Shown here: piece by piece, positions 1 through 21,860 of the stretch
How the letters are laid out: every line of letters starts with the position of its first letter
Position numbering within the stretch: position 1 is the first letter of the stretch
Source: Candidatus Zixiibacteriota bacterium
GTDB lineage: Bacteria > Zixibacteria > MSB-5A5 > GN15 > FEB-12
Direction: 5' to 3'
NCBI GenBank assembly: GCA_022571985.1
Contig: JACZWU010000011.1
Location: forward strand, 1 to 53,243
Length of the DNA: 53,243 bases
Translations under genes and position numbers: made by a program
The notes under the pieces: generated by a model
The model's database searches: none
What the model was told of the DNA's origin: nothing
What the model saw: the letters and a program-made list of their open reading frames with translations, nothing else

Positions 1-3000
1 ACTGCGCCCCAATTGAAGTTAATACTGGCAGCTGATTGCCACCGTCAGTTACTGTAATTGTAACGATTTCACTATCAACTGCTGTGCTGTCGTCGGTGGC
101 GTAAAACGTTACATTGTAACTGCCTGACTGAAAGAAATCCGGCGTCCAGACAAATGATCCGGTACCGTTGCCGTTATCTGTAAAGACTGCACCGCTCGGA
201 AGTGTCGAAGTAGCAAGAACTGGGAATGCGCCTTCGGCGTCAGTCGCCGAAACTCCGAACGAAAGCAGAACATTTTCAGTAGTTGACTGAGCGCCTATCG
301 CTGCAAGTACCGGCAGCTGATTGCCGGCTTCAGTAACCGTAATCGTGACTACTTCACTATCGGCCAAGCTACCGTCAGAAGCAATAAACGTTACATTGTA
401 AACACCTGATTCAGCAAATCCGGGCGTCCAGCTGAATGATCCGGTATCATTACCATTGTCTGTAAAGCTGGCTCCAGCCGGAAGATTCAGAACGGTCAAA
501 GTTGTAATAGTGGCATTGGGGTCGCTGGCAGTAACATCAAAACTCAAAAGCTGACCCTCGGTAACAGCCTTGGCGCCTATCAAATCAAGTACAGGTGCCT
601 GATTTGACTGAAGGTCTAAGCGAAGTTCAATTGCATCTACGTAATAAGCGAAGTCATCAGGACCACCAGTTTTTACAACACCTCGTAACTGTACCTGGAA
701 ACCGTCGACCTGGCTTGAAGTAGTTATGGCACTAGCTGAAAAAGGGCCGACTGTGGTAAGTGTAGTTGGAATATTGGCAAAAGATTCAAACGGAATAAAA
801 CTGGTACCATCAAAATATTCCAAAACCAAACTGTCATTTGAATATCCGCTCTGCCTGTGTGTTATGTATATGTCTGCTGAATTGATTGGCACTCCCGGAT
901 TGACCGTATTATCAAAATCGAAAGTCCAGGTGTGCCCATTAGCAAGTTTGCCGGTAATGCTGGCCTCAGCACCATCAGGAGCGCCATGAGAACTTATCTC
1001 TGACGCGATAGGACGGGTAGACACAGAAGTAACTACATAAAGCGACTCGGCGGATGCTACTACTCCGGCTTCAGTTACTGTAATCGTGACAATTTCTGAA
1101 TCTACTGCCGATGAATCATCAGTTGCATAAAACGTTACATTGTAACTGCCTGATTGCAGGAATGTCGGGGTCCAGTCAAATGATCCGGTGCCGTTGCCGT
1201 TATCCGTAAAGATTGCACCTGTAGGTAGAGTTGAAGTTGTCAGAACCGGAATGCTCTCTATATCTGAAGCTGAGACAACAAAACTTAAAAGAACATTCTC
1301 AGTTGTAGACTGCGCCCCAATCGCAGCAAGAACCGGCAGCTGGTTGCCGACTTCAGTTACTGTAATCGTGACTACTTCAGAGTCTACTGCAGTGCTGTCA
1401 TCAGTGGCATAAAATGTTACATTGTAACTGCCGGATTGTAAGAAATCCGGTGTCCAATCGAAAGATCCGGTACCGTTGCCGTTATCAGTAAATATTGCAC
1501 CGGTCGGAAGTGCCGAGGTTGTCAGAACTGGCGTGCTTTCTATATCTGTCGCTGAAACACCAAAACTTAATAGAACATTCTCGGTAGTAGACTGAGCGCC
1601 GATAGCAGCTAAAACTGGCAACTGGTTGCCACCGTCAGTAACTGTAATCGTGACTACTTCAGAGTCTACTGCAGTGCTGTCATCGGTGGCGTAAAAGGTT
1701 ACATTGTAACTGCCTGATTGTAAGAAATCCGGCGTCCAGTCAAATGATCCGGTACCGTTGCCGTTATCGGTAAATACCGCCCCGGTCGGAAGCGCCGATG
1801 TAGTCAGAACTGGCGTGCTTTCTATATCTGTCGCTGAAACACCAAAACTTAGCAGAACATTTTCAGTTGTAGACTGCGCCCCAATCGCAGAGAGTATCGG
1901 CAGCTGGTTGCCACCGTCAGTTACTGTAATTGTGACAATTTCTGAATCTACTGCCGACGAAGCATCAGTTGCATAAAACGTTACATTGTAACTGCCTGAC
2001 TGCAAGTAGTCCGGGGTCCAATTGAAACCGCCATTGCCATTACCACTATCTACAAATACCGCCCCTGTCGGAAGTGTCGAAGTTGTTAAAGTAGGAGTAC
2101 TCTCTGCATCTGTGGCTGAAACACCAAAACTCAGTAGAACATTTTCAGTTGTTGACTGAGCACCAATCGCAGAGAGTATCGGCAGCTGGTTGCCGGCCTC
2201 AGTAACCGTAATCGTGACTACTTCACTATCAACCGCCGATGAATCATCAGTTGCATAAAACGTGACGTTATAGCTTCCCGCCTGAGTCAAGTCCGGTGTC
2301 CAGTCAAATGATCCGGTACCATTGCCATTATCTATAAAGACTGCACCGGTCGGTAGAGTCGAAGTGCTTAAACTTGGAATGCTCTCTATATCTGAAGCTG
2401 AAACACCAAAACTTAGCAGAACATTTTCAGTTGTAGACTGAGCCCCAATCGCAGCAAGAACTGGTAGCTGATTGCCGGCTTCATTGACTGTGATTGTAAC
2501 TACTTCACTATCAACCACAGTGCTGTCATCGGTGGCATAGAAAGTTACATTGTAACTGCCTGACTGCAAGTAGTCCGGTGTCCAGTCAAATGAACCGGTA
2601 CCGTTGCCGTTGTCTATAAAGACTGCACCTGTCGGAAGTGCCGATGTAGTCAGAACTGGCGTGCTTTCTATATCTGTCGCTGAAACACCAAAACTTAGCA
2701 GAACATTTTCAGTTGTAGACTGCGCCCCAATCGCAGAGAGTATCGGCAGCTGGTTGCCACTGTCAGTAACTGTTATGGTGACAACTTCAGAGTCAACTGC
2801 AGTGCTGTCATCGGTGGCATAAAAAGTTACACTATAGACACCTGATTGGGCAAACGTCGGCGTCCAGCTGAATGAACCTGTGCCGTTGGCGTTATCAACG
2901 AAAGTTGCTCCGGAGGGAAGAATTGAAGTTGTTAACGTCGGTATCGTTCCGTCGCCGTCCGTCGCTGATACGCCAAAACTAAGATTAAGATTTTCTGTTG

Positions 3001-6000
3001 TAGATTGTGCCCCGATTACAGCCAGTACTGGCAGCTGATTAACATTATTAATTGTCTTCGATACTACCTCAGAGTCAACCAGAGCACCATCCGAAGCATA
3101 GAAAGTACAGCTATAAACTCCCGACTGAGAGAAGCTCGGAGTCCAGTTAAACACACCCGTGCCATCACCGTTGTCCACAAACGTAGCGCCCGAAGGAAGA
3201 AGAAAAGTGGTCAACACCGGAATCGTACCGTCAGGATCGCTGGCACTAACTATAAAGTTAAGATTCTGACCTTCGTCAATCGTCTTATTACCTATCGCTG
3301 CTAATACCGGTGCCTGATTAACATTATTAACCGTTATAGAAACTATTTCAGAATCGGTCGCAATACCGTCAGTAGCATAAAAAGTTACACTATAGACACC
3401 CGATTGAGCGAATGTCGGCGTCCAGCTGAAGCTGCCCTTACCGTTCAGACTGTCTATAAAGACGGCGCCAGCTGGCAAGGCCGACGTATTAAAAGTTGGA
3501 GTCGTGGCATCGGCATCCGTGGCCGAAACAGCAAAGCTGAGAGTTACATTCTCATTTACAGACTGAGCGCCTATCGCTGCCAAAACCGGTGCCTGATTAA
3601 CATTACTAACTGTTATTGTTACAACTTCAGAGTCTATTGCAGTGCTGTCATCAGTGGCGTAAAACGTTACATTGTAACTGCCGGATTGTAAGAATGTCGG
3701 GGTCCAGTCAAAGCTTCCGCTACCATTGCCATTGTCTATAAAGACTGCGCCTGTAGGTAGAGTCGAGGTGGTTAAACTTGGAATGCTTTCTATATCTGTT
3801 GCAGAGACACCAAAACTTAACAGAACATTCTCGGTAGTTGACTGTGCGCCAATTGCAGAGAGTATCGGCAGCTGGTTGCCACCGTCAGTTACTGTAATTG
3901 TGACAATTTCTGAATCTACTGCCGACGAAGCATCAGTTGCATAAAACGTTACATTGTAACTGCCTGACTGCAAGTAGTTCGGGGTCCAGTCAAAGATTCC
4001 GGTACCGTTGCCATTATCTATAAAGACTGCACCTGTCGGTAGAGTCGAGGTAGTTAAACTTGGAATGCTCTCTATATCTGAAGCTGAAACACCAAAACTT
4101 AGCAGAACATTCTCAGTAGTTGACTGTGCACCGATTGCAGCCAGTATCGGCAGCTGATTGCCACCATCATTGACTGTTATCGTGACTACTTCAGAGTCTA
4201 CTGCAGTGCTGTCGTCGATAGCATAAAACGTTACATTGTAACTGCCTGACTGTAAGAAATCCGGTGTCCAATCGAAAGATCCGGTACCATTGCCATTATC
4301 TATAAAGACTGCACCAGTCGGTAAAGTCGAGGTTGTTAAAGTCGGAGTACTCTCAATATCTGAAGCTGAAACTGCGAAAGTGAGTAATACATTTTCTGTG
4401 GTAGACTGCGCCCCAATTGAAGTTAATACTGGCAGCTGATTGCCACCGTCAGTTACTGTAATTGTAACGATTTCACTATCAACTGCTGTGCTGTCGTCGG
4501 TGGCGTAAAACGTTACATTGTAACTGCCTGATTGCAAGTAGTCCGGAGTCCAGTCAAATGATCCGGTACCGTTGCCGTTATCTATAAAGACTATGCCTGT
4601 AGGAAGTGTCGATGTAGTCAGAACCGGAGTGCTCTCAATATCTGTAGCTGAAACTCCGAAACTTAGCAGGACATTCTCAGTGGTTGACTGAACGCCAATT
4701 GCAGCCAGTATCGGCAACTGGTTGCCACCATCATTGACTGTTATCGTGACAACTTCAGAGTCTACTGCAGTGCTGTCATCGGTAGCATAAAACGTTACAT
4801 TATAACTGCCTGACTGTAAGTAGTCCGGTGTCCAGTCAAAGCTGCCCGTGCCGTTGGCGTTATCTATAAAGACTGCGCCGGTCGGAAGTACCGAGGTTGT
4901 TAAAACCGGAGTGCTCTCGATATCTGTCGCAGATACACCAAAACTTAGCAGAACATTCTCAGTGGTCGACTGTGCGCCAATTGCAGCCAGTATCGGCAAC
5001 TGGTTGCCACCGTCAGTAACTGTTATCGTGACTACTTCAGAGTCTACTGCAGTGCTGTCATCGGTAGCGTAAAATGTTACATTGTATGTCCCGGATTGTA
5101 ACAAATCTGGAGTCCAGTCAAAGCTGCCCTTACCATTGAGACTGTCTACGAAGACCGCCCCGGCAGGCAGAGCAGAAGTGCTAAGAGTTGGAGTAGTGGC
5201 ATCGGCATCCGTGGCCGATACACTAAAGCTTAGATTTACATTTTCATCAACTGACTGAGCGCCTATCGCTGCTAAAACCGGAGCCTGGTTAACATTGTTA
5301 ATCGTCTTCGTTACTACCTCAGAGTCAACCAGCGCACCGTCAGAAGCATAGAAAGTACAGCTATATACACCCGACTGTGAGAAACTCGGGGTCCAGTTGA
5401 ACACACCCGTGCCATCACCGTTGTCCACAAATGTGGCACCCGAAGGAAGAAGAGAAGTGGTCAACACCGGTATCGTTCCATCAGGATCGCTGGATGTAAC
5501 TATAAAGTTAAGATTCTGACCTTCGTCAATCGTCTTATTTCCTATAGCTGCCAAAACCGGAGCCTGGTTAACGTTATTGACTGTTATAGCAACTATTTCA
5601 GAATCGGTCGCAACACCGTCAGTGGCATAGAAAGTAACACTATAGACACCCGACTGGGCGGAAGTCGGCGTCCAGCTGAAGCTGCCCTTACCATTGAGAC
5701 TGTCTACGAAGACCGCCCCGGCAGGCAGAGCAGAAGTGCTAAGAGTTGGAGTAGTGGCATCGGCATCCGTAGCTGAAATACCAAAGCTGAGATTTACGTT
5801 TTCATCAACTGACTGAGCGCCTATCAGAGCCAAAATCGGCGGCTGATTAACATTATTCACTGTTATGGTGACAACTTCAGAATCTACTGCTGTGCTGTCA
5901 TCTGTGGCGTAAAATGTTACATTGTATGTCCCGGATTGTAACAAATCTGGAGTCCAGTCAAAGCTGCCCTTACCATTACCGCTGTCTACAAAGATTGCGC

Positions 6001-6690
6001 CTGTTGGAAGTGACGAGGTCGTTAAAGTCGGTGTACTTTCAGCATCTGTGGCTGATACGCCAAAGAGAAGCTGAACATTTTCGTTCGTTGACTGAGCGCC
6101 TATTGCTGTAAGTATAGGCAGCTGATTGCCAGCGTCAGTTACTGTTATTGTGACAACTTCACTATCAACCGCCGATGAATCATCAGTAGCATAAAAGGTG
6201 ACGCTATAGGTTCCCGCCTGGGTCAAGTCTGGTGTCCAGTCAAAGCTCCCCGTGCCGTTGCCATTGTCTATAAAGACTGCACCGCTTGGCAGTGTTGATG
6301 TCATCAGAGTCGGAAGTGCTCCTTCTGCATCACTGGCAGAAACACCAAACGAAAGCAGAACATTTTCAGTAGTTGCTTGTGCACCAATTGCAGCCAGAAC
6401 CGGTAACTGATTACCGGCTTCATTAACCGTAATAGTTACGACTTCACTATCAGCCAAGCTGCCGTCGGAAGTTATAAACGTTACATTATAAACTCCGGAT
6501 TGAGTAAATCCTGGTGTCCAGCTGAACGATCCGATGTCATTGCCATTGTCTATATAGCTGGCGCCGGCCGGAAGATTTAGAGCCGTAAGTGTCGTTACCG
6601 TAGCATTAGGGTCACTGGCTGTAACATCGAAATTTAGGGGCAGACCCTCAGTCACAACCTGAGCGCCTACAGGGTCAAGTACCGGAGGCA
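1..6690 (-). repeat. Tandem 281-285 bp repeats encoding Ig-like domains
   Basis: Units recur about every 282 bp, with boundaries near 25, 310, 600, then 1060, 1340, 1620, 1900, 2180, 2465, 2745, 3030, 3310, 3590, 3870, 4150, 4430, 4715, 4995, 5280, 5565, 5840, 6120, 6400 and 6690. The 600-1060 gap is the second copy of the non-Ig module. Positions 1-127 are identical to 4404-4530 by direct reading, so units have been copied recently or homogenised. Several subtypes occur, for example units whose linker reads NVNQ (near 3030, 3310, 5280, 5565) and the commoner NQLP type. Confidence 0.9.
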
Positions 6691-7219
6691 GATTAGCTTC
6701 TAGTGTCAGTCGCAATTCAACAGCGTCGACAAAGTAAGTAATATTATCATGAGCCCCACTTTTCGAGACCCCACGCATTCTTACCTGGAATCCGTCTAGC
6801 TGGTTTGCTGAAACAATTGCAGTGATTACAAAAGGACCGACTGTCGTCAAAGTTGTTGGAATATTGGCAAAAGACTCGAAGGGAATAAAACCAGTACCGT
6901 CAAAGTATTCTAAAACCAGACTGTCATTTGATAAACCCGACTGTCTGTGAGTAAGAAAAATTTCTGCCGAAGTTACTACGTCCCCAGTATTAACAGTATT
7001 GTCGAAATCAAATGTCCAGGTATGTCCGTTATTTGCTAGACGGCTATCGTTGATACTGGCTTCGCTTCCATCAGAGACACCATGAGAATTGATTTCAGAA
7101 GTTATGGTGACAGAACTGACAGAACTATTTACATACAATGATTCGGCTGTTTGTCCAGCAACCGAAACAGCCGCAAACAGAAATACTGCCGCTGTTAATA
7201 TGACTTTATGTGTACCCAT
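1..7219 (-). CDS. Giant secreted Ig-like repeat protein (3' end outside window)
   Basis: The minus-strand frame stays open from an ATG at 7219 to the left edge, giving at least 2,406 residues. The N-terminus has a typical signal peptide (Lys at 5, hydrophobic core, Ala-Gly-Gln near residue 22). Residues about 25-174 form a beta-rich module of about 150 residues, containing HTWTFDFDNT and YFVDAVELRL, that looks like a carbohydrate-binding or jelly-roll fold. Twenty Ig/cadherin-like repeats of about 94 residues follow, each with the pattern NQLPVL, GAQ, SFGVSATDAE, FDWTPD, YNVTFYATDDS, VVTITV. A second copy of the module lies at about residues 2055-2205, followed by at least two more repeats. 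Repeats of this kind in established families are adhesins or stalk proteins; an adhesive or structural surface role is inferred. The gene begins 24 bp after the previous stop, so it is probably co-transcribed. The C-terminus, where a sorting domain would be expected, is not visible. Confidence 0.9.
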   Translation of the reverse strand, partial: MGTHKVILTAAVFLFAAVSVAGQTAESLYVNSSVSSVTITSEINSHGVSDGSEASINDSRLANNGHTWTFDFDNTVNTGDVVTSAEIFLTHRQSGLSNDSLVLEYFDGTGFIPFESFANIPTTLTTVGPFVITAIVSANQLDGFQVRMRGVSKSGAHDNITYFVDAVELRLTLEANLPPVLDPVGAQVVTEGLPLNFDVTASDPNATVTTLTALNLPAGASYIDNGNDIGSFSWTPGFTQSGVYNVTFITSDGSLADSEVVTITVNEAGNQLPVLAAIGAQATTENVLLSFGVSASDAEGALPTLMTSTLPSGAVFIDNGNGTGSFDWTPDLTQAGTYSVTFYATDDSSAVDSEVVTITVTDAGNQLPILTAIGAQSTNENVQLLFGVSATDAESTPTLTTSSLPTGAIFVDSGNGKGSFDWTPDLLQSGTYNVTFYATDDSTAVDSEVVTITVNNVNQPPILALIGAQSVDENVNLSFGISATDADATTPTLSTSALPAGAVFVDSLNGKGSFSWTPTSAQSGVYSVTFYATDGVATDSEIVAITVNNVNQAPVLAAIGNKTIDEGQNLNFIVTSSDPDGTIPVLTTSLLPSGATFVDNGDGTGVFNWTPSFSQSGVYSCTFYASDGALVDSEVVTKTINNVNQAPVLAAIGAQSVDENVNLSFSVSATDADATTPTLSTSALPAGAVFVDSLNGKGSFDWTPDLLQSGTYNVTFYATDDSTAVDSEVVTITVTDGGNQLPILAAIGAQSTTENVLLSFGVSATDIESTPVLTTSVLPTGAVFIDNANGTGSFDWTPDYLQSGSYNVTFYATDDSTAVDSEVVTITVNDGGNQLPILAAIGVQSTTENVLLSFGVSATDIESTPVLTTSTLPTGIVFIDNGNGTGSFDWTPDYLQSGSYNVTFYATDDSTAVDSEIVTITVTDGGNQLPVLTSIGAQSTTENVLLTFAVSASDIESTPTLTTSTLPTGAVFIDNGNGTGSFDWTPDFLQSGSYNVTFYAIDDSTAVDSEVVTITVNDGGNQLPILAAIGAQSTTENVLLSFGVSASDIESIPSLTTSTLPTGAVFIDNGNGTGIFDWTPNYLQSGSYNVTFYATDASSAVDSEIVTITVTDGGNQLPILSAIGAQSTTENVLLSFGVSATDIESIPSLTTSTLPTGAVFIDNGNGSGSFDWTPTFLQSGSYNVTFYATDDSTAIDSEVVTITVSNVNQAPVLAAIGAQSVNENVTLSFAVSATDADATTPTFNTSALPAGAVFIDSLNGKGSFSWTPTFAQSGVYSVTFYATDGIATDSEIVSITVNNVNQAPVLAAIGNKTIDEGQNLNFIVSASDPDGTIPVLTTFLLPSGATFVDNGDGTGVFNWTPSFSQSGVYSCTFYASDGALVDSEVVSKTINNVNQLPVLAVIGAQSTTENLNLSFGVSATDGDGTIPTLTTSILPSGATFVDNANGTGSFSWTPTFAQSGVYSVTFYATDDSTAVDSEVVTITVTDSGNQLPILSAIGAQSTTENVLLSFGVSATDIESTPVLTTSALPTGAVFIDNGNGTGSFDWTPDYLQSGSYNVTFYATDDSTVVDSEVVTITVNEAGNQLPVLAAIGAQSTTENVLLSFGVSASDIESIPSLSTSTLPTGAVFIDNGNGTGSFDWTPDLTQAGSYNVTFYATDDSSAVDSEVVTITVTEAGNQLPILSAIGAQSTTENVLLSFGVSATDAESTPTLTTSTLPTGAVFVDSGNGNGGFNWTPDYLQSGSYNVTFYATDASSAVDSEIVTITVTDGGNQLPILSAIGAQSTTENVLLSFGVSATDIESTPVLTTSALPTGAVFTDNGNGTGSFDWTPDFLQSGSYNVTFYATDDSTAVDSEVVTITVTDGGNQLPVLAAIGAQSTTENVLLSFGVSATDIESTPVLTTSALPTGAIFTDNGNGTGSFDWTPDFLQSGSYNVTFYATDDSTAVDSEVVTITVTEVGNQLPVLAAIGAQSTTENVLLSFVVSASDIESIPVLTTSTLPTGAIFTDNGNGTGSFDWTPTFLQSGSYNVTFYATDDSSAVDSEIVTITVTEAGVVASAESLYVVTSVSTRPIASEISSHGAPDGAEASITGKLANGHTWTFDFDNTVNPGVPINSADIYITHRQSGYSNDSLVLEYFDGTSFIPFESFANIPTTLTTVGPFSASAITTSSQVDGFQVQLRGVVKTGGPDDFAYYVDAIELRLDLQSNQAPVLDLIGAKAVTEGQLLSFDVTASDPNATITTLTVLNLPAGASFTDNGNDTGSFSWTPGFAESGVYNVTFIASDGSLADSEVVTITVTEAGNQLPVLAAIGAQSTTENVLLSFGVSATDAEGAFPVLATSTLPSGAVFTDNGNGTGSFVWTPDFFQSGSYNVTFYATDDSTAVDSEIVTITVTDGGNQLPVLTSIGAQ

Positions 7220-7243
7220 CACCCTAATAGTTCTCCGTACTCA

Positions 7244-9925
7244 TTACTTGATAAGCAGCATTTTCTTGGTTTCACTTTTAGAGCCCACCCGAAGTCTGTA
7301 GAAATAGACACCTGTTGAGACCCTGTGTCCGCTGTAACTTCTGGAATTCCATTCGATAGTGTAGTGCCCTGAGGGAAGTTGTTCGTCAACCAAACTTTTA
7401 ACTCTTTGGCCCAAAATATTGAATATATCAAGGGCAACTTGTTGAACTCCTGAGCCATCTGATGACAGTCCGATAGTAAACTCAATAATGGTCGAGGGAT
7501 TAAACGGGTTAGGATAATTCTGGAATAGTTCAAATGTTTCAGGCAATAGCGGACCGTCGCTGATACCCTCTACTGCAACCGCAACCGAATTGGAAGTAGA
7601 AAGAAGTGCACCATCGATTTTGAGCTGAGTTTCATCACCTGTATAGACGTACCTCTGGGCATACATCGGAATCTCCAGCATATCAATATTTCCGGCAGGC
7701 AACTGCTGAGCAGCATCAAACGGGTTACTGAAGTGCATCAATATTTTCATTTTGCCATCGGCCGTAATTTTGTACTGCATGGTCATTCCTGAAGCATCAA
7801 CAGCTAATTTGGGGGCACCCAGTACGACCACGGTCGGATCAAATTCTATATCAAGCTCCACCGCTGCTATTTTTTCCGGCAGGTAAGACTGAATCACCAT
7901 TACATCGCGTTGACCGGGATTTAGATTTTGGTAACTTAATGACATTGTTGCCGGTTCAGTAGTAATAGGAGGCGGCGGGGCCGGTGAGACCGGAATACCA
8001 AAAATTGTGTTAAGTGTTGCGACTAAATCGAAGACGTTGACAACATCGTCGCGGATAAGATCGGCCGCTTCGAACTGGCGTCCCGATAATGCGTAGTTAC
8101 CAATAATGTAGGCTACGATGCTGACTAAGTCAGCAACGTTGATGTTTTTATCAAGGTTAACGTCACCGGGTTTGTCTACCTGCACCACGCCCCCTTCAGT
8201 AACCATTTCCAGCGAAGGAAAGTTCGGGTCGGGGTTGACCGACTCGAAACCGTTGACCAGATCAATGATATAGTCAGTCCAGGGAATTGCCCCTGTGTCA
8301 ATCGTCAGATAAACGTTTATAACTGCAGAGCTGGTTGTATCTGCTACCACCGAGTCGTTGGCCAGACCAAAAGCAACTACTCGAACTTCACCGGGTAATA
8401 TCCCGATATTATCTGAAACCGTGAAATTCTGAATCCTCGGAGTGCCCGCCAAAGAATCTATTGTTATCGCACGATGGTCATAGAACATATCAAACTGAAT
8501 TCCATAGACAGTTTGCGAGGTAACCATATTGATTGGAAAGACCAGGTCCCTGGTGCCTGTTAGTCCGCCAATTGGGTCTTGCCCCGTCGCTGAAGATGAA
8601 AACAGTCTGTCAAACTCCAGAGCTTCGACTGTAATAGAGGCGTTGGCGCTGCTGCTCTTGTTGCCATTATCGGTTGCTACAAACTGAATGACAAATGTCC
8701 CCTCCTGCGTAACATCGGGAGTGAAACTAAAATTTCCCGTGACGGTATTGGTACCGATTACAGTATTAAAAGTGGCGTTGGCCGGAACGTTGTTGGCACT
8801 AAGCGTGACAATGTCGCCTGTGTTGGGGTCTGTTGCAGTTACGTCAAAAGTGACCGTCTGTGCTTGTTCGACAACATGGAAGCTACCCTGAGGGAATGAA
8901 ATAACCGGAGCGTCAGTAGAAGGAGGTGTTGTCGTATCGCCTGTATCAGGTACCACCGTGACATTAACGAAAGATTTGACAGAATCAAAAATGTTCCAAG
9001 CGGTCAAAGTAAATGAGGCATCGGAAGACGGCGACAAGAATAACGACCCGCTAAAATTTGTAGAATCAAAGAAATTTAAGCCCGGACCGGTAATTTTAAG
9101 CGAGTCCGCGTTATCAACTATATAGCTTATCTGAGTGGTGCTGCCCTCTTTGATTGTATCCGGGATTGCTAAGAATTCTACAATTGAAGGAGCTGGAGCA
9201 GTATCTGCAACAATGTAGCCGTCAATAGTTTTCGGGTATATTGTAATGGGGACGCCCGTATCATTGAAGTCAGCACTCATCTCCGTTCTCTGACAGTCAA
9301 GAACTATAATATTACCATCATCATCGACAAATACCGGCTGGATTTCATAGAATCTGATCAAGCCCGAATCGTTATGCTGCATATTTCCAAGCAGCTCAAA
9401 AGCCATTCTAAAAATTACCCCCTTGCCCCGCTCTGTCGAAAAAAGTGTAGTATCACTTGTAATCGATAGATTGTAGCCGGCGATAATAGCTCCGGAATCA
9501 AACGGATTCTGAGAAATCTGAGCAAAAAAGTTGGTTATTGTATCAGTCGGATCAGTTGGATCAGTTTTTACAAATCTTCCGGCTAGCTGGGTTACCAGTC
9601 GAGAAAGGCTGTCAATCGGATCAAAAATTGTTATTGGCTGAATCTTGGTACTGTCCCAGTGGATGAGCATTCTGAAACCGGACATAGCCGAATCATTTTC
9701 CAGAAAGAGTGGCACCCAGACAGTATCGTTCGGTTTTCCAATCGTTTTAATAATTCTTACTTCATCAAACGGAGATTCTGTAAGATTGTCACAATTCAGG
9801 GAAACTTGAGACTGAACCTGATTTGAAAATGCTGTCAGAATAACAAAAGCAAATACTGTCAGCTTGAAAGCTGAAAGTAAATAATAAGAAGATTCAGTTT
9901 GGTGAAGTCTGTTATTTGTCTGCAT
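7244..9925 (-). CDS. Secreted cohesin/Ig/dockerin-like protein with C-terminal sorting domain
   Basis: The ATG at 9925 is preferred because it is followed at once by a signal peptide (hydrophobic run ending at about residue 38, before QVSLNCDN) and lies 13 bp after the upstream stop. Longer starts would overlap that gene. The product is 893 residues. In order it shows a cohesin-like beta-sandwich (about 40-190), an Ig-like stretch, a putative Ig/cadherin domain (about 330-430), a second cohesin-like domain, a dockerin-like calcium-loop segment (DVNLDKNINVADLV, then DVVNVFDLV), a third cohesin-like region, and a C-terminal FlgD-Ig/type A sorting domain (FQNYPNPFNPST to TKKMLLIK). By family knowledge such domains direct export through a type IX-like system and surface attachment. 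The binding partner is unknown. Confidence 0.85.
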   Translation of the reverse strand: MQTNNRLHQTESSYYLLSAFKLTVFAFVILTAFSNQVQSQVSLNCDNLTESPFDEVRIIKTIGKPNDTVWVPLFLENDSAMSGFRMLIHWDSTKIQPITIFDPIDSLSRLVTQLAGRFVKTDPTDPTDTITNFFAQISQNPFDSGAIIAGYNLSITSDTTLFSTERGKGVIFRMAFELLGNMQHNDSGLIRFYEIQPVFVDDDGNIIVLDCQRTEMSADFNDTGVPITIYPKTIDGYIVADTAPAPSIVEFLAIPDTIKEGSTTQISYIVDNADSLKITGPGLNFFDSTNFSGSLFLSPSSDASFTLTAWNIFDSVKSFVNVTVVPDTGDTTTPPSTDAPVISFPQGSFHVVEQAQTVTFDVTATDPNTGDIVTLSANNVPANATFNTVIGTNTVTGNFSFTPDVTQEGTFVIQFVATDNGNKSSSANASITVEALEFDRLFSSSATGQDPIGGLTGTRDLVFPINMVTSQTVYGIQFDMFYDHRAITIDSLAGTPRIQNFTVSDNIGILPGEVRVVAFGLANDSVVADTTSSAVINVYLTIDTGAIPWTDYIIDLVNGFESVNPDPNFPSLEMVTEGGVVQVDKPGDVNLDKNINVADLVSIVAYIIGNYALSGRQFEAADLIRDDVVNVFDLVATLNTIFGIPVSPAPPPPITTEPATMSLSYQNLNPGQRDVMVIQSYLPEKIAAVELDIEFDPTVVVLGAPKLAVDASGMTMQYKITADGKMKILMHFSNPFDAAQQLPAGNIDMLEIPMYAQRYVYTGDETQLKIDGALLSTSNSVAVAVEGISDGPLLPETFELFQNYPNPFNPSTIIEFTIGLSSDGSGVQQVALDIFNILGQRVKSLVDEQLPSGHYTIEWNSRSYSGHRVSTGVYFYRLRVGSKSETKKMLLIK

Positions 9926-9938
9926 CTTATCTTTTATT

Positions 9939-11021
9939 TTAAAAGCACCATTTTTCGTAAAGTGAGCCCGGTTCACTGTCAATCCGGTAAAAGTAAACCC
10001 CGCTGGACTGGTTGTTTCCCTGATAATCCCTGCCATCCCAGCTGACAAAATGCTCTCCCGGAGACAGCACACCCTCAACCAGAGTATTCACCCTTTGACC
10101 AAGCAAATTGTAAACCGAAAGCTCAACCCGGGCAGTTCTAGGCAGATGAAAGCTTATTTTTGTCTCAGGATTGAATGGATTGGGGTAATTGGCTGATAGA
10201 TAGTAACTTTCGGGAATCGCAGCAGTTACCGCCGCATAGCCGGCTTCCAATAACTCCCCCTGGCCAGAAGCCATTTGCCGGCCGAATATTTCAAATTCTG
10301 CAAGATTTTTCACAGTCAGAAAATTTTCAGTATCTGCCGGAAGACGATTGCCATCAAGGTTATATATCATAACTCTGAGCTGGTTGCCGTCATGGAAATA
10401 CTGTGCTGTTATACCGGCGTAGATGTCAAATTCAAGATAGGCAATCTCTTCTTGCTGAATCTTGGCACCGGAGAAATTTGTCAGAGTGTTGTCATCTTTG
10501 GAGAGGCTGTCTAAAAATCTAAATTTCATCGGAATATTGAATCCTGCAAAATCGTGATTTCTTGAAATAGAAAATTTTAGTCTGGCGATCTGTCCTGAAC
10601 CGGCCGAAAGCGGTAAATGAGAATTGTCCTGGTTTAAGTCCGCAATTCCGACCAGGTGTATATTTTCCTGTATACCGTCTGCATCAAACTGGTAACTGAA
10701 ATATTCAAAGCTGGCCGAGCCACCAGTAAGGTTATCAACTTGCACTGCCGCCAGTGCAGAAACGTCGTAGCTAAAAAGAATATTAAAAGAGCTGACAGAA
10801 ACGGAATCCAAAGCTAAAGCAGGCATAGCCAGCGAGGCGCTATTTTCCAGCGTCTCAAAGTGAGGCATCGCTTGTTCCAATTTCTGATACTCCGACTCAG
10901 ATTTAATATCTGTCTTCATTCCTCTTTCGGTTCCAATTTCTTCGGCCTGTGCAATAACTGAACAAGCTAAAGCCAGGGCGACTATCGGCATTATGGCCAT
11001 CCGCAAAATTGGTCTTTCCAT
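9939..11021 (-). CDS. Secreted cohesin-like protein with frameshifted sorting-domain end
   Basis: The ATG at 11021 gives MERPILRM and a signal peptide ending near AQAEE. A longer in-frame start at 11057 would add an acidic stretch and is less likely. The product is 360 residues: a cohesin-like beta-sandwich (about 80-220), a linker, and a sorting domain with ANYPNPFNPETKISF and GVYFYRID. The last residues read GSLYEKWCF, whereas the family ends in a KMVLLK-type motif. An alternative frame over the same bases (stop at 9936-9934) encodes LTLRKMVLLK. A single-base change near 9945-9965, real or an assembly error, therefore seems to have removed the conserved end. Confidence 0.8.
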   Translation of the reverse strand: MERPILRMAIMPIVALALACSVIAQAEEIGTERGMKTDIKSESEYQKLEQAMPHFETLENSASLAMPALALDSVSVSSFNILFSYDVSALAAVQVDNLTGGSASFEYFSYQFDADGIQENIHLVGIADLNQDNSHLPLSAGSGQIARLKFSISRNHDFAGFNIPMKFRFLDSLSKDDNTLTNFSGAKIQQEEIAYLEFDIYAGITAQYFHDGNQLRVMIYNLDGNRLPADTENFLTVKNLAEFEIFGRQMASGQGELLEAGYAAVTAAIPESYYLSANYPNPFNPETKISFHLPRTARVELSVYNLLGQRVNTLVEGVLSPGEHFVSWDGRDYQGNNQSSGVYFYRIDSEPGSLYEKWCF

Positions 11022-11053
11022 TTCTTCTTCTTCTGCTCGGATACTTAACAGTA

Positions 11054-11116
11054 TCATCGAATTGAGCAATTATCAGACCAAGCCACACATATTGTGGTTG
11101 TGGCCGCCCATCCCAT
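11054..11116 (-). CDS. Possible 20-codon leader ORF overlapping the next start
   Basis: On the minus strand a consensus AGGAGG stands 5 bases before an ATG at 11116. The 20-codon ORF ends in TGA at 11054, and that stop overlaps an in-frame ATG (11057) of the downstream secreted-protein gene as ATGA. The Shine-Dalgarno sequence and overlap are visible; a role in translational coupling is inferred. The peptide has no recognisable homology and could be fortuitous, with the Shine-Dalgarno serving nothing. Confidence 0.25.
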   Translation of the reverse strand: MGWAATTTICVAWSDNCSIR

Positions 11117-11776: not shown

Positions 11777-14425
11777 TTACTTCAAAAGTACCATTTTCTT
11801 GGTCTCTTTGAATTGGCCATCCTTGGAATCAGCAACCACACGGTAGAAATAAACACCGCTGGCCTGATTGGAGGCATCCCATTCGACATTCACAATACCG
11901 GCTTCGGCATTGCCAGCAAAATCAGCAACTTTCTGACCGGCTACGTTGTAGATAGTCAGAGTGTAATTGCTGGCTGTTGGCAGCGCAAAACTGATGTTTG
12001 TGGATGGGTTGAACGGGTTAGGATAGTTCTGATTCAGAGCAAATTCAGTCGGAAGTTCGACTTCTTTGGCAGTGATCGGGGCGCCATCGTAGGTGGCCAT
12101 TTCAATGCTGACGACTACAGAGCCGTTAGTATTGATAAATTCACCTGTGAAGGATACGTCCTTATCAGTGTTGTTATAAACCAGAACGCGAGTTACGTTG
12201 TTGGCAGCATCAAATGCATATTCCATGTCCATGTTTTCAGCCAACAGAGTCGGCTCAACATTGCCCTGGAGCTGCAATGCGGCAGCGCCAACTTCGATAT
12301 CAACTTCAAGGATTCCCTTGGAGTTGACAGTATAAATTGCTTCGACCGGAACGGTCTTGGCAAACGGCAGGGCATCACCAAGAACTATACGAATCAGGTA
12401 TACCAAATCAGCTACCGAAAGAGTCAAGCCATCGGCATTGACGTCTGTGGCAGCAATCTGTCCCTGAAGGTTAATGTTGAATACGCCGATACCATAGATG
12501 AAATAGTTGGTGAACAGAACGGCGTCAGCAACTTCGTTGGCAACGTTGTTCAAGTTGATATCACCACGATCATCGATGGAGTCGACACAAACGATGTCTA
12601 TACCGCCGTTAAGGAAGTCGATAAAGCGTACAGGAGCCGGTTTTTCGGGATCTGCACCCGCAGGGTAGCAGTCGACATCCTGGGCACCCTGAACAGTCGG
12701 GTAGCCAACATTCGGATTGGCAATGTCACCAACCAGATCAAAATCAATAACCGCACGGGAGATAGCCAGTCTTTGTTCAAAACCGGTTACATCTTCGGCA
12801 GGGTTAAATGAAATTGTGTTGTCACCGCAGTCATACCAGAAAAAGCGGATCGGTATGTACTGACATTCAAATGTCTGATCTGCAGTAACAAGGAAATCCA
12901 GGCAGAACATTTCTGCCGGCAATGAAGACGGCAGATAACAGGCCGGATGGTTGGCGCCGTTATTGGTTTCAGCAATACCAACTACTCTCAACTGACCTGA
13001 AGGACAGGCGTTGCCGCAGTTGCCACTGGCACCATAACGATAATTGAAATATTCCCAGCCGCAGCCGTTGGCATACAAGTCGGAGCCTTCGAGAGCTGTC
13101 TGGAAGCTCAAGGCGGATGCGTCATAAGCGATCAGGAAGTCAAATCCCCACATCTGCTCGGAACCTTTTTCTAAGGTTACGCAAACGAGTTCATGTCCGC
13201 CCTGAGCGGTATTATGGGTTTTTTCAATCAAGACTTCATAAGGCTCAGTAAACAGTACATCAATAGTAGTTTCACAACAGACGGTTTCTTTACCATCAGT
13301 CACACAAACTGTAAAGACGAACTGTTTGTCACCGTCGTCATTATCCGTGTTGAAAGTCACCAGACCAGTGCTGGCGTCAATGCTGTAGCCGCCGACCGGA
13401 GTCGGGGACACACCACTAATGCTGAAGCTGATCGGGTCACAGTCGTCAGAGACCGCATCAAAATCGAAAACAAGCGTGTTTCCTTTACCAATTGGAATGG
13501 TTTCATTGCAACCGTCGGTAAAGGAGGGAGCCACGTTAGTGAAGTTCAAAGATGTTACACAGTTCGGTCCGAGGTTACCCGGAGTATCCTGAGCCTGTAC
13601 ATCAATTGAAAGTGAAGCGCCAACATCGGCCAGTGTTGGGGCATAGGACCACAAACCTGAAGAGGATGTGGAACCAGGGCCACTATTCTGTACGAATGTA
13701 AGCGGGCGTGCGCCCAGAGTATCCCGATCCAGTGCTTCATACTGAAATTCAGCCAAAGCACAGTGATCAAAGTCCAAACTTGCCTGACAATTAGTTATGT
13801 CTGGAGGCTGGTTCGGCACTTTGAAAATTGTATAACAGTGCGGGCCAGACCAGTCTGGCTTGCTGTCGGCAGCCGACCACAGCCACTCTTCGTTAGGGCC
13901 ATATCCTGACGAATCAAGACAAATAGTCTTGCCATTGTCAGCATCATTAGGCACTGTGACCGAAATAGTTATGGCAGGAAGGTCAAAACCATCAGTAAAT
14001 GAGACTCCCAGGGGCGGATCTTCACCATCAATTCCATCGATACTGAATCCACCAAGTCCAACGGTGTCAGTACCTGAACCATTGTTGGTAGGGGCACGAT
14101 AGAATCTAAACAAACCATCATATCTCGTCTTCCAGGCAAAGCCAGTGGAAGTCAAGAGATCCACCGTGTCGATCACAGGCAAGGTCCAACTGGAACCTGA
14201 TCCGCCGTCATGAATAATCCAACCGTTGTTAGATCCGTTCAGGGTATCGCCAGCCGCCATCCTGAGGGATATAGTCCAGACGATTGGCGCACCTACTGCT
14301 ACGGTATCAGGACCTGAATAGCCGGTGTTAACGCTACTTAAATAAAGAGCGTTTTGGCCATTAGCCAGCCCAAAAGAAAGAACCAGCATTGCTGCTAAGG
14401 CAAGAAAGAATGAATAGCGTTTCAT
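11777..14425 (-). CDS. Secreted Ig/cohesin/dockerin-like protein with C-terminal sorting domain
   Basis: The ATG at 14425 has AGGAGAG just upstream and starts a clear signal peptide (MKRYSFFLALAAML to about residue 23). Earlier in-frame starts add a non-signal extension. The 882-residue product carries an N-terminal beta-sandwich region, two cadherin/Ig-like domains (about 210-400), a cohesin-like domain (WGFDFLIAYDASALSF), a dockerin-like calcium-binding segment (DDRGDINLNNVANEVADAV, then DVNADGLTLSVADLV) and a C-terminal type A sorting domain (NQNYPNPFNPSTNISF to ETKKMVLLK). It is cysteine-rich for a surface protein, which suggests disulfides. A surface role is inferred from the modules; no catalytic domain is recognisable. 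Confidence 0.85.
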   Translation of the reverse strand: MKRYSFFLALAAMLVLSFGLANGQNALYLSSVNTGYSGPDTVAVGAPIVWTISLRMAAGDTLNGSNNGWIIHDGGSGSSWTLPVIDTVDLLTSTGFAWKTRYDGLFRFYRAPTNNGSGTDTVGLGGFSIDGIDGEDPPLGVSFTDGFDLPAITISVTVPNDADNGKTICLDSSGYGPNEEWLWSAADSKPDWSGPHCYTIFKVPNQPPDITNCQASLDFDHCALAEFQYEALDRDTLGARPLTFVQNSGPGSTSSSGLWSYAPTLADVGASLSIDVQAQDTPGNLGPNCVTSLNFTNVAPSFTDGCNETIPIGKGNTLVFDFDAVSDDCDPISFSISGVSPTPVGGYSIDASTGLVTFNTDNDDGDKQFVFTVCVTDGKETVCCETTIDVLFTEPYEVLIEKTHNTAQGGHELVCVTLEKGSEQMWGFDFLIAYDASALSFQTALEGSDLYANGCGWEYFNYRYGASGNCGNACPSGQLRVVGIAETNNGANHPACYLPSSLPAEMFCLDFLVTADQTFECQYIPIRFFWYDCGDNTISFNPAEDVTGFEQRLAISRAVIDFDLVGDIANPNVGYPTVQGAQDVDCYPAGADPEKPAPVRFIDFLNGGIDIVCVDSIDDRGDINLNNVANEVADAVLFTNYFIYGIGVFNINLQGQIAATDVNADGLTLSVADLVYLIRIVLGDALPFAKTVPVEAIYTVNSKGILEVDIEVGAAALQLQGNVEPTLLAENMDMEYAFDAANNVTRVLVYNNTDKDVSFTGEFINTNGSVVVSIEMATYDGAPITAKEVELPTEFALNQNYPNPFNPSTNISFALPTASNYTLTIYNVAGQKVADFAGNAEAGIVNVEWDASNQASGVYFYRVVADSKDGQFKETKKMVLLK

Positions 14426-14710
14426 TGTTTCTCTCCTAATTTCTTCGTTAACATTAATAAACGTCTTATTGTCGTTAAACATAATCGCTATACCCCCCAC
14501 AATCCACAAAAACGAACACTTCAGCAGATGAGAGCCAACTAACCTGCAATTGATTCGGATTAGGTAATTGCGAATACATAAAACGTTCTTTCGTTTGAGC
14601 GCGTGTCATTTATACCTCTTTTAAGAGTCCTCCTTTCCACCTTGGGGGTTAAAGGTTTGAATTGCGGTTTTCGTTAAAACCGTAATCCTTCACTTTTATT
14701 TTAAATTTTT
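14426..14710. other. Intergenic leader of the 11777-14425 gene
   Basis: About 285 bp. On the minus strand a perfect hairpin (CGGTTTT with AAAACCG, 14665-14682) lies just after the 14711 gene stop but lacks a U-tract. A 44-codon ORF (14475-14609) follows an AGAGG but shows no motif. Nothing else is recognisable. Confidence 0.4.
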
Positions 14711-16740: not shown

Positions 16741-17688
16741 ATGGCTAAAATATCTAGGCAAACCAAAGAAATCATTAACATTATTCTATTCTTTTTAGTG
16801 ATAGGCCTTCTGGTAACATTCTACTGGATCTATCCGCTGAACCTGGCCAAAACCGGCATGGGTAGAAATGACCTCGATAATTATAATGAAATGCTGGACA
16901 CATTGTCGGAGCTGCCAAACGAGGCTTTGCTGTGGCAAGAGGCCGGGCTGAATCCGGACACCTTCCGGGTTGAGGCCGACGGGCTGACCACTTTGGCCTG
17001 CCTGCGCTGTTTGCCTGAGGACAGTTTCATCGGGACGGTTTTTCTGCTGCATAATGATAACCAAAATCGTGACTCTATACTATGGCTGGCTTCAGCTTTG
17101 CTCCAAAGAGGTTATGTTGTTTTAGCCTGGGACCAGCGAGCCTCGGGGCGTTCTACCGGCCTGAATCGCGGAGCTGGACAGTACGAATCTGCTGATTTAA
17201 ACGAGCTTATAGCAAATTTAGATTTGCGATACCGCCTGGTACATCCGCTGGTAGCTGTTGGTTTTGGCACCGGCGCAGATGCGGTTATTCTTTCTTCTCA
17301 AAGCGAAAGCCGCCTTGATGCCATCGTTGCTATTGAGCCATACCTGACTTCGACCCGCCTGTTAAATAAACTTAAAGAACAGCACGATATGCTCTGGTTT
17401 CCATTTTTCCGGTCGGTTTTCTGGTGGTGGTACGAGATGCGCTCAAGCTACGCTGTAGAGTACAGAGAGATTTCTGATATCGACCCGGTAGTAGTTCCTG
17501 CTCTTCTTCTGGTATCACCAGAAGATTTAGATGATGTGGAGGTCCGGCAAATTGAGACGGTTTCAAGCAGCAGCGGAAAGTTGAGACTGCAGACAACCCC
17601 GGCTGATAATAGCAGCTTAGAAACGATAATCCTGGACTTTGTGAAAAATTTACCAGTTGATTCTGTCTCATTGAAATTGGAAAACTAA
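16741..17688 (+). CDS. Membrane-anchored alpha/beta-hydrolase-like protein, probably non-catalytic
   Basis: 315 residues. One transmembrane anchor lies at residues about 10-30, then an alpha/beta-hydrolase-type domain: a strand/oxyanion-like region (TVFLLHNDNQNRDS), GYVVLAWDQRASGRS after it, and a nucleophile-elbow region VGFGTGAD at 173-180. The usual Gly-x-Ser-x-Gly is Gly-Phe-Gly-Thr-Gly, so the nucleophile is missing, and no His follows in the C-terminal 100 residues. Catalysis is therefore doubtful and a binding or scaffold role is possible. The AhpD-like selenoprotein starts 7 bp downstream, suggesting one transcript. No clear Shine-Dalgarno precedes the ATG. Confidence 0.7.
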   Translation: MAKISRQTKEIINIILFFLVIGLLVTFYWIYPLNLAKTGMGRNDLDNYNEMLDTLSELPNEALLWQEAGLNPDTFRVEADGLTTLACLRCLPEDSFIGTVFLLHNDNQNRDSILWLASALLQRGYVVLAWDQRASGRSTGLNRGAGQYESADLNELIANLDLRYRLVHPLVAVGFGTGADAVILSSQSESRLDAIVAIEPYLTSTRLLNKLKEQHDMLWFPFFRSVFWWWYEMRSSYAVEYREISDIDPVVVPALLLVSPEDLDDVEVRQIETVSSSSGKLRLQTTPADNSSLETIILDFVKNLPVDSVSLKLEN

Positions 17689-17695
17689 GCTGACT

Positions 17696-18250
17696 ATGTC
17701 CTTTATAAAATACATTCCTTACGATGAAGCCTCAGAAGAACTAAAAGCGCTCTATGAAAAATACGGCGGTAAGAACAAAATTCCTGCCAATATTGTCAGG
17801 GTTGCAGGATTTAACCCCAAAGCAATGGCAGCCCACCTTGATTTTTACCGGGCAATTATGTTTGGCAAGTCTCCTCTCAACCGTGACCAGCGGGAGATGA
17901 TAGCGATAGTTGTCTCGGCCATAAATGGCTGCCACTACTGAATTGAACATCACTGGTCCGCGTTGCGGGCTCTGGGAAATGTAGAAGATTCGCTAAGAAA
18001 TCAGCTGGTTAAGGATTTCGAATCTGCAGATATATCCGAAATTGACCAAGCCATTTTGAATTACGCCGCTAAGTTGACCAAAGAGCCGGCATCTATATCC
18101 GGGAACGATGTAAGTGATTTCCGAGCCAAACACCCCGAGCTAACCGATCATATGCTTCATGATATTGTTCAGGTCGTATCCTATTTCAATTATGTCAATC
18201 GCTTAGCCGACGGCCTGGGGGTTGAACTCGAAGAGCGCTTCAAGAAATAG
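17696..18250 (+). CDS. AhpD-like peroxidase-related selenoprotein (in-frame TGA)
   Basis: The frame is continuous from ATG at 17696 to TAG at 18250 apart from TGA at codon 82 (17939-17941), giving 184 residues if read through. The sequence on both sides belongs to the carboxymuconolactone decarboxylase/AhpD-like peroxidase-related family. Residues 67-86 match the active-site pattern Glu-x11-Cys-x-x-Cys-x3-His, with E67, C79 and H86 present and TGA exactly at the second redox Cys (CHY-TGA-IEHH). Selenocysteine at this position is known in this superfamily. A hairpin suited to a bacterial SECIS lies just downstream. Likely role: thiol/selenol peroxide or disulfide chemistry. A conventional annotation would wrongly split this gene into 81- and 95-residue pieces. 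Confidence 0.85.
17955..17971 (+). promoter_or_regulatory. Candidate bacterial SECIS hairpin
   Basis: GGTCCGC and GCGGGCT pair as 7 bp (two G-U pairs) around a GTT loop whose first base is G. The loop begins 20 bases after the TGA. A short apical loop with an early G at roughly 16-37 bases fits the usual description of bacterial SECIS elements. Pairing was judged by eye. Confidence 0.6.
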
Positions 18251-19974: not shown

Positions 19975-20481
19975 TTACTGAAGCTCAGTTATTTCATAAT
20001 GCTTGTCTGCTAATTCATATGCCTCATTATAATATTTTTCCAAATTCGGTTTTAATTCTTTGAGTTTTCTCGTCAATCGATCCCCATGGTAGTAATTGCT
20101 ATTGAGATAAACAATTGTACTTAGAACTTCTAAAAGCTGCGGGTCTTTTTGGCCAAGAGATTCAATTAAGTCTTCACTTGTATTTTCCAAATTGTCACTA
20201 GCGATAAAATCTGAGGCTGGTTCAGATAAAGCAATTTTGTAACCCGCTAGAGCATCATCCTTATCTTGATTGATCATACTAATGGCACATCCAAATTCTA
20301 AATCACGTGCCAATAATGGAGAGAAAACACCGTAATGATGAAATACAAAATCATATCCAAAATTTTCCCCCGAATTCTGAATAAGATAAACCAATTTGTG
20401 TAATTTTTTACGACTATATATACTACCTCCCATTTTTTCAAGCAAAGACCTCACCTTTCCAAGTCTTTTCAATGAACTCAA
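19975..20481 (-). CDS. YwgA-like protein
   Basis: 168 residues, AT-rich compared with neighbours outside the island. The N-terminal half, with KKLHKLVYLIQNSGENFGYDFVFHHYG split over about residues 25-50 and FSPLLARDLEF after it, resembles the YwgA family of Firmicutes and more distantly Panacea/SocA-type domains (winged-helix-like, function uncertain). It overlaps the upstream HD gene by 4 bp (ATGA), so the two are probably translationally coupled. YwgA next to an HD phosphohydrolase is also seen in Bacillus (ywgA/ywfO neighbourhood), which supports the call. A defence or nucleotide-sensing role is only inferred. Confidence 0.6.
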   Translation of the reverse strand: MSSLKRLGKVRSLLEKMGGSIYSRKKLHKLVYLIQNSGENFGYDFVFHHYGVFSPLLARDLEFGCAISMINQDKDDALAGYKIALSEPASDFIASDNLENTSEDLIESLGQKDPQLLEVLSTIVYLNSNYYHGDRLTRKLKELKPNLEKYYNEAYELADKHYEITELQ

Positions 20482-21860
20482 TTCTCTTCCTCCTGTTTAA
20501 TTTGTTTAACTTCATGAACAATTTCTTCTGGAACTATTATAAAATGATGTTGATATTTGGCGGGTCCAATTATGGCACCGCTTATTGGATGGTCGTTGAC
20601 ATCAATTTGGGAATACCTTTTCGGATTATTTCCTTCTTCGAATAAAAAAATTTCTTTATAATCCAATTTCTTATACGCCACTCTTTCCGGATCGCTAACT
20701 ATAAAATAGTATTCTGGGGGGAAATCATTCTTATCCAAAACCTCTTTCACTCTACTAGAAATTCTTTCGTATATAGATAAGCTAAATTTTTCAAGTTTTA
20801 CAGCTTTTAACAATTTTCGATTTAGAAAACGCGCTGATAAATCATATAAATATTGATCAATTTGTTTGTTTCTTGACCAATGAATTATCCACGACATCAC
20901 TAAGACATCATCCAATTCAAGGTAGTCATTCATGGATATTTTTTCTTCCTTCGCAATACAATTCAAGACGCTATTATTAACTTTAATGTCTTTGCCTTCT
21001 TTGAGCAAATCTATTGCTCTAATTAGAATTTTTATGAAAACACCCTCTGCACACTGGACAGTTTTGTGGTAGTACACGTGATTAAAGAGATATAGATTAC
21101 CTAAAAGGAACTGTTCCAAAGCACTAATACCACGCCTGACGTCTAAGGCGATCGTGTCCACGGAAAATGGAATTCCGTCTTCATCTAGCATTTGTACGCT
21201 CTTTACAGTTAAGTTACGAAGCATCCAATTTAAATCAAATTTGCCGTAATGCGCGCCAGTCATGTAAGTATCGCGTAGCATGTAATCAAACTTATCTACA
21301 TCTAGTTGAGAGTTGACTATTGAACGAATCAAAGGAGATTTGTAATCTCCTGTAATAACGTCTTTTACATCAGATTGAAATTCTTCTCCATACTTATCGA
21401 AGCATTCTATTAATTCTTTATGTTCCATGACAATAGAGCCCGACCACATTTCGTGACTTTTTGTATATTTGAATCTCAGTTCGTTAAGAAATGCTTCAAA
21501 TAGATGGCTAAAAGGACCGTGTCCAATATCGTGTAAAAGGGCTGCAACCTGAACAAGAAGCATGTCATATTCATTTTTCTTGTCCTTCGATGTGATTTGG
21601 TTTAACATCCGTCCAGCCAAATGATAAACGCCAAGCGAATGTGCGAATCTACTATGTTCTGCAGCTGGATAAACCAGTGATGCAACCCCTAATTGCCTGA
21701 TTCTCCGCAATCTTTGCATTGGTTCAGTAGCCAACAAATCCAGAACAAGTTTGTGTTCTACCTTGATCAGATCGTGTATAGGATCTCTGATTATTTTGGC
21801 TGGAGTTAGAAGATTATTTTGAATTAATTCTGCTATATCTCCCAAATTTTCGCTCTCCAT
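20478..21860 (-). CDS. HD-domain phosphohydrolase, dGTPase/YwfO-like
   Basis: 460 residues. HD metal-site signatures are visible: ARFAHSLGV-type (here SRFAHSLGVYHLAGRM, about 70-85), HDIGHGPFSHLFE (about 110-122), and DVDKFDYMLRD (about 203-213) carrying the last aspartate. These match the dGTP triphosphohydrolase/YwfO branch, whose members hydrolyse dNTPs. Some dNTP-hydrolysing HD enzymes restrict phage by depleting nucleotides; whether this one does is unknown. It is followed in a 4-bp overlap by the YwgA-like gene. The DNA is clearly more AT-rich than the DUF58 and asparaginase genes, consistent with transfer. No good Shine-Dalgarno precedes the ATG. Confidence 0.8.
   Translation of the reverse strand: MESENLGDIAELIQNNLLTPAKIIRDPIHDLIKVEHKLVLDLLATEPMQRLRRIRQLGVASLVYPAAEHSRFAHSLGVYHLAGRMLNQITSKDKKNEYDMLLVQVAALLHDIGHGPFSHLFEAFLNELRFKYTKSHEMWSGSIVMEHKELIECFDKYGEEFQSDVKDVITGDYKSPLIRSIVNSQLDVDKFDYMLRDTYMTGAHYGKFDLNWMLRNLTVKSVQMLDEDGIPFSVDTIALDVRRGISALEQFLLGNLYLFNHVYYHKTVQCAEGVFIKILIRAIDLLKEGKDIKVNNSVLNCIAKEEKISMNDYLELDDVLVMSWIIHWSRNKQIDQYLYDLSARFLNRKLLKAVKLEKFSLSIYERISSRVKEVLDKNDFPPEYYFIVSDPERVAYKKLDYKEIFLFEEGNNPKRYSQIDVNDHPISGAIIGPAKYQHHFIIVPEEIVHEVKQIKQEEEN

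Follow-up and report, generated by a model that had tools for sequence, protein, structure and literature searches.

A probable TIGR01926 AhpD-like selenoprotein with an in-frame SECIS in Candidatus Zixiibacteriota

Described AhpD-like proteins and the Zixibacteria gene

AhpD-like proteins that carry selenocysteine (Sec) have been described before: a review table of 2026 lists an 'AhpD-like protein, TIGR01926, CxxU', credited to its reference 59 (PMC13188914), and AhpD-like selenoproteins have been reported from the Sargasso Sea (PMC1088965) and from GOS (PMC2398784). A related AhpD-domain selenoprotein, with CxxU in common, is captured by NF041238 (AhpD_rel_CFYUT (seleno)protein), a model of 357 positions. 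In M. tuberculosis AhpD the relay comprises Glu118, Cys130, His132, Cys133 and His137 (PMC3141380).

The gene studied here lies at 17696-18250 on the forward strand of the window, by which we mean the whole 53,243-nucleotide stretch of DNA that was analysed. Its product belongs to the already known TIGR01926 CxxU kind, with which it shares the family model, Sec at the second position and a SECIS just downstream. It differs in lineage, being closest to Candidatus Zixiibacteriota, and in its Zixibacteria-specific SECIS, which lies on HHW-x-A-L-R/H-S codons where the known AhpD-like genes use common HHGAGLR codons. We estimate a probability of about 93% that this is a genuine TIGR01926 selenoprotein, in which UGA82 is read as Sec via SelB, Sec-tRNA(Sec) and the in-frame SECIS, and which has a Sec-based redox role, most likely in peroxide defence. 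The first-pass annotation had seen novelty in the lineage; this is weakened by the earlier catalogue entries (PMC13188914, PMC2398784, PMC1088965) and by homologues with the same TGA in many phyla. What the locus adds is a selenoprotein with good support, from an uncultured phylum in which tRNA-Sec is present in most of the relatives surveyed.

Mechanical ORF calling had split the gene in two, an error that is now corrected. One ORF (17696-17941, 81 aa) stops at TGA, and a second (17963-18250, 95 aa, TTG start) lies in the same frame; translation with TGA as U joins them into a single 184-aa protein with an ATG start, a TAG stop and one internal TGA. The motif of the joined protein is C79-H80-Y81-U82-I-E-H-H86, with E67 twelve residues ahead of C79, so that the in-frame TGA at 17939-17941 falls at residue 82, the second redox position, just where it had been placed on first reading. 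The AhpD-like assignment also held: an NCBIfam search gave 128 bits to TIGR01926 'peroxidase-related enzyme' (cut-off 81.8) across residues 3-177 of 184, PF02627 scored 47.8 against a cut-off of 23, and all 25 aligned members match TIGR01926 at E <= 0.001. The protein lies outside two neighbouring families, scoring 23.6 bits against a cut-off of 191.95 for TIGR00777, the classical AhpD that partners AhpC, and 59.6 against 175 for NF041238, of which it matches the C-terminal half only.

The predicted structure (AlphaFold, pLDDT 93) is an all-helical CMD/AhpD fold, on which E67, C79, U82 and H86 form an E-x11-C-x2-C/U-x3-H active site. A fold search placed 3c1l (Mlr4105), 6k40 (D. radiodurans AhpD), 2oyo and 2pfx nearest (TM 0.82-0.87); these proteins are similar in length and about 28-35% identical to the window protein. 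They presumably have a C-x-x-C centre with a Glu and His relay, and Cys where the window protein has Sec.

Active-site spacing is identical in M. tuberculosis AhpD, and Sec82 therefore corresponds to its Cys133. By motif, Cys79 (17930-17932, +), the partner (resolving) redox residue, matches Cys130 (PMC3141380), and by spacing the proton-relay residues Glu67 (17894-17896, +) and His86 (17951-17953, +) match Glu118 and His137. The window protein differs in having Tyr81 for His132 and Sec for Cys133, and in falling far below the TIGR00777 cut-off. As first proposed, Glu67, Cys79 and His86 are intact; all three are invariant in a 25-sequence alignment.

We searched 98 genomes, including the window's own, for relatives of the protein (query P0001). 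They hold 27 orthologous places, with protein conservation on either side of the TGA. The Sec codon (17939-17941, +) is TGA at the aligned site in 25 of the 27; the first-pass objection that TGT or TGC might stand in its place in the window does not hold. The two other orthologues (L039 and L041) encode CEYC, with TGT and TGC respectively, and the TGA aligns with a conserved Cys.

The downstream hairpin

The hairpin first noticed 13 bases after the TGA, with a 7-bp stem and a GTT loop, was recovered by folding and proved to be conserved, with covariation, in at least 20 related genes. It occupies 17955-17971 on the forward strand, where 17955-17961 pairs with 17965-17971 (including two G-U pairs) around a GUU apical loop at 17962-17964; the stem starts 13 nt and the loop 20 nt after the TGA, and the predicted energy is -11.9 kcal/mol. 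The published bSECIS model calls for a loop of 3-9 nt that begins with G then U, a spacing of 16-37 nt and an MFE below -7.5 (PMC13188914), and the GUU loop, 20-nt spacing and folding energy of our hairpin agree with each of these rules.

A 7-bp hairpin of some kind, loosely defined, comes after about 5% of the TGA triplets in the window. By single-sequence folding the stability of this one is unremarkable (z -0.87), being equalled in 32 of 200 dinucleotide shuffles (16%). As the hairpin is not significant by that measure, the case for it rests on comparative evidence. Across 20 sequences with the hairpin at the same position, 99.3% of pair cells hold standard pairs, and at three of the seven pairs both partners change, for a total of 14 double-sided cells. 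In 500 shuffles neither the pairing score nor the covariation score of the real alignment was reached, and partners slid out of register pair in only 42-57% of cells, with much lower scores. The compensations include a change from CC/GG to AU/AU in two genera (g3 and g4) and single compensated pairs in two loci (L027 and L042); to judge from the genus labels, several independent compensation events are likely.

The pairing also leaves its mark on the protein. Ala89 is encoded by GCG and Leu90 by TTG in all 21 sequences, despite four and six possible codons, and residues 88 and 91 co-vary because their codons pair, mostly as Ala, Ser or Thr with Arg, or Asn or Asp with His. The SECIS is a case of RNA pairing that dictates correlated amino-acid changes and freezes synonymous codons. 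At the same place in the two Cys homologues no such hairpin was found (-2.3 and -2.6 kcal/mol).

A covariance model of the hairpin (R1) scored 60.5 bits at its own site and 17.3 bits at the next site in the genome; because the model had been trained with the window sequence included, only the gap to the next match is informative. An Rfam scan across the whole window gave no match. Separately, we observed that relatives of the window's organism (L044, and also G042, G047, G050 and G095) carry another AhpD-like family, distinct from the first, which has CRYU and a hairpin of its own. Its identity to the window protein is about 30% across the first 97 residues, and the hairpin in L044 reads CUUCCGC-GGU-GCGGAAG.

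Possible function and gene neighbourhood

In the mechanism that we propose, SelB carrying Sec-tRNA(Sec) would decode the UGA at codon 82, guided by the hairpin, and Sec82 would stand where the AhpD CxxC centre has its attacking cysteine. With E67 and H86 as the activating relay, its selenolate may then reduce peroxide, or else a peroxiredoxin or disulfide partner. C79 would resolve the resulting selenenic acid, giving a selenenylsulfide that would be re-reduced by a dithiol donor. We infer both substrate and reductant, and the substrate is uncertain because the peroxidase activity of the AhpD-like protein PA0269 is weak (PMC3141380). Peroxide defence is the most likely role in this Zixibacterium, since the gene directly follows that of a flavodiiron O2/NO reductase in eight relatives.

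These eight genomes span seven genera (G004, G006, G007, G020, G032, G035, G040 and G048; loci L150-L154, L027, L031 and L025). In each, a flavodiiron protein of about 395 aa is encoded directly upstream of Sec-AhpD on the same strand, with gaps of about 4 to 225 nt. Five of the eight proteins were checked and have ODP beta-lactamase and flavodoxin domains, and the remainder were matched by tblastn. The adjacency suggests an oxygen-defence context, and gives an otherwise uncharacterised selenoprotein family a testable physiological role. No flavodiiron protein passes the Pfam cut-off in the window's own genome, and the functional link is therefore borrowed from relatives.

A selenoprotein that is not a peroxidase is the most serious alternative, and we give it a sizeable minority of the probability. 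The protein might be a thiol/selenol adaptor for a peroxiredoxin or another disulfide protein, as M. tuberculosis AhpD is for AhpC, and the weak rate of the AhpD-like peroxidase fits such a role (PMC3141380); or it might be a reductive dehalogenase like the debrominase Bmp8, which the fold search also returned as a distant structural match (E about 2e-5). Yet the closest structures (3c1l, 6k40, 2oyo and 2pfx) are of the peroxidase-related group, the recurrent neighbours included no recognisable peroxiredoxin, and the flavodiiron neighbourhood fits the handling of O2 and peroxide.

Peroxide defence, which we prefer, can be extended to a more specific model, for which we claim only tentative standing. 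The Zixibacteria Sec-AhpD may remove peroxide in partnership with the flavodiiron O2/NO reductase, the two being encoded in one conserved oxygen-defence operon; a catalytically dead, membrane-anchored hydrolase homologue would be the ancestral neighbour. The order hydrolase, flavodiiron, Sec-AhpD occurs in three of the genomes above (G020, G035 and G040). In the window's genus, we hypothesize, the flavodiiron gene has been lost and the rest kept. No description of a flavodiiron and AhpD operon, or of the hydrolase neighbour, was found in the open-access papers searched, where absence counts for little.

In the window, the hydrolase homologue is a 315-aa alpha/beta-hydrolase-like protein (16741-17688, +) that ends 7 nt before the Sec-AhpD start and has one N-terminal hydrophobic, probably membrane, helix. 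In place of a G-x-S-x-G nucleophile elbow it has GFGTG, with Gly at the nucleophile position, and the elbow residue varies freely across 30 homologues (G, D, E, S, A, Q and others), so that a serine hydrolase is unlikely. Its structure, predicted from eight sequences, is of low confidence (pLDDT 51) and was set aside.

The pairing of the selenoprotein with a nucleophile-less hydrolase had been put forward as a novelty in its own right. It stands for the window and its genus, but not as a general partnership, and in the eight relatives described above the place directly upstream is taken by the flavodiiron gene. That the two form one functional unit we consider unlikely. The 7-nt gap speaks for such a unit, as does an adjacency kept in three genera, namely the window's own, g20 (G021 and G045) and g4 (G033 and G043), the only ones in which it occurs. 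Against this, the hydrolase family is present in 69 of the 98 genomes, many of them without Sec-AhpD, versus about 25 with Sec-AhpD; in several genomes the two genes lie on different contigs; and all that is left of the hydrolase beside the Sec-AhpD of G005 is a short fragment, matching over 36 positions with three stops, at a distance of 82 bases. An exclusive pairing as a general rule is ruled out by this distribution.

Elsewhere in the window, a very long open frame of over 2400 aa runs off the window edge (2-7222, -) and is accompanied by three large proteins (7244-10078, 9939-11069 and 11777-14509, all -) with type IX / FlgD-like C-terminal sorting domains. A 168-aa protein (19975-20481, -) has a weak match to antitoxin DarG (24 bits, far below the cut-off), and adjoins an HD-domain protein (20478-21860).

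Sec machinery and other readings of the TGA

The selA, selB, selC and selD genes that the first-pass annotation had implied are all present in the window's genome (G000, 2.93 Mb, 97.6% complete), which disposes of the objection that the machinery might be missing. There, selA (506 bits, TIGR00474) is directly followed by selB (343 bits, TIGR00475), and a single tRNA-Sec with anticodon TCA (RF01852, 71 bits; tRNA-SeC by ARAGORN) lies about 12 kb away on the same contig. The selD gene (390 bits; L046:1501-2424) has an in-frame TGA of its own, in the N-terminal CAGU motif. Among the 98 genomes, 77 have tRNA-Sec, including 24 of the 25 with the TGA gene versus 53 of the 73 others (Fisher p = 0.012); this co-occurrence is consistent with Sec insertion but weakly discriminating, because tRNA-Sec is widespread in these relatives. 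Taken from sequence evidence, insertion of Sec at residue 82 appears near certain, and the selenocysteine interpretation is strongly supported.

The UGA might instead be read as Trp under a reassigned code, or as Cys by plain readthrough with a near-cognate tRNA. Any in-frame TGA formally fits recoding, and the inserted residue is invisible in the sequence. Nonetheless, we regard this reading as highly improbable: TGA works as a stop in 10 of the 34 long ORFs of the window, the residue homologous to Sec82 is Cys and never Trp in the non-Sec homologues compared, and a complete Sec machinery coincides with a SECIS at the right spacing. On the conservation of the TGA, its use as a stop and the dN/dS values given below, we reject code reassignment.

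A pseudogene, in which a nonsense mutation or sequencing error split a Cys-type AhpD gene, would account for the listing of the two halves as separate ORFs, but is ruled out for practical purposes by the recurrence of this TGA at one and the same codon across many genera and phyla, by the conserved SECIS and by purifying selection downstream of the TGA (dN/dS 0.11-0.25 among three species of the window's genus).

Selection within the genus is likewise purifying before the TGA (dN/dS 0.08-0.15). Among named records the closest is L050, a Candidatus Zixiibacteriota MAG with 85% identity; more Zixiibacteriota and other FCB-group MAGs come next. The TGA is also shared by more distant homologues, which belong to Gemmatimonadota, Acidobacteriota, Planctomycetota, Chloroflexota, Halanaerobiales, Cloacimonadota and others. 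The same TGA is present in 78 of the best 80 homologue matches, a frequency biased by their choice as the most similar to a Sec-rich query. On contigs of the Gemmatimonadota group the gene neighbourhood is also conserved, but differs: the Sec-AhpD homologue is closely followed by a hutH-like (histidine ammonia-lyase) and then a hutU-like (urocanase) gene, names that were given by eye from sequence (L065, L067, L069, L071, L074, L075, L090, L100, L102, L104, L109, L111, L113, L116, L117 and L121).
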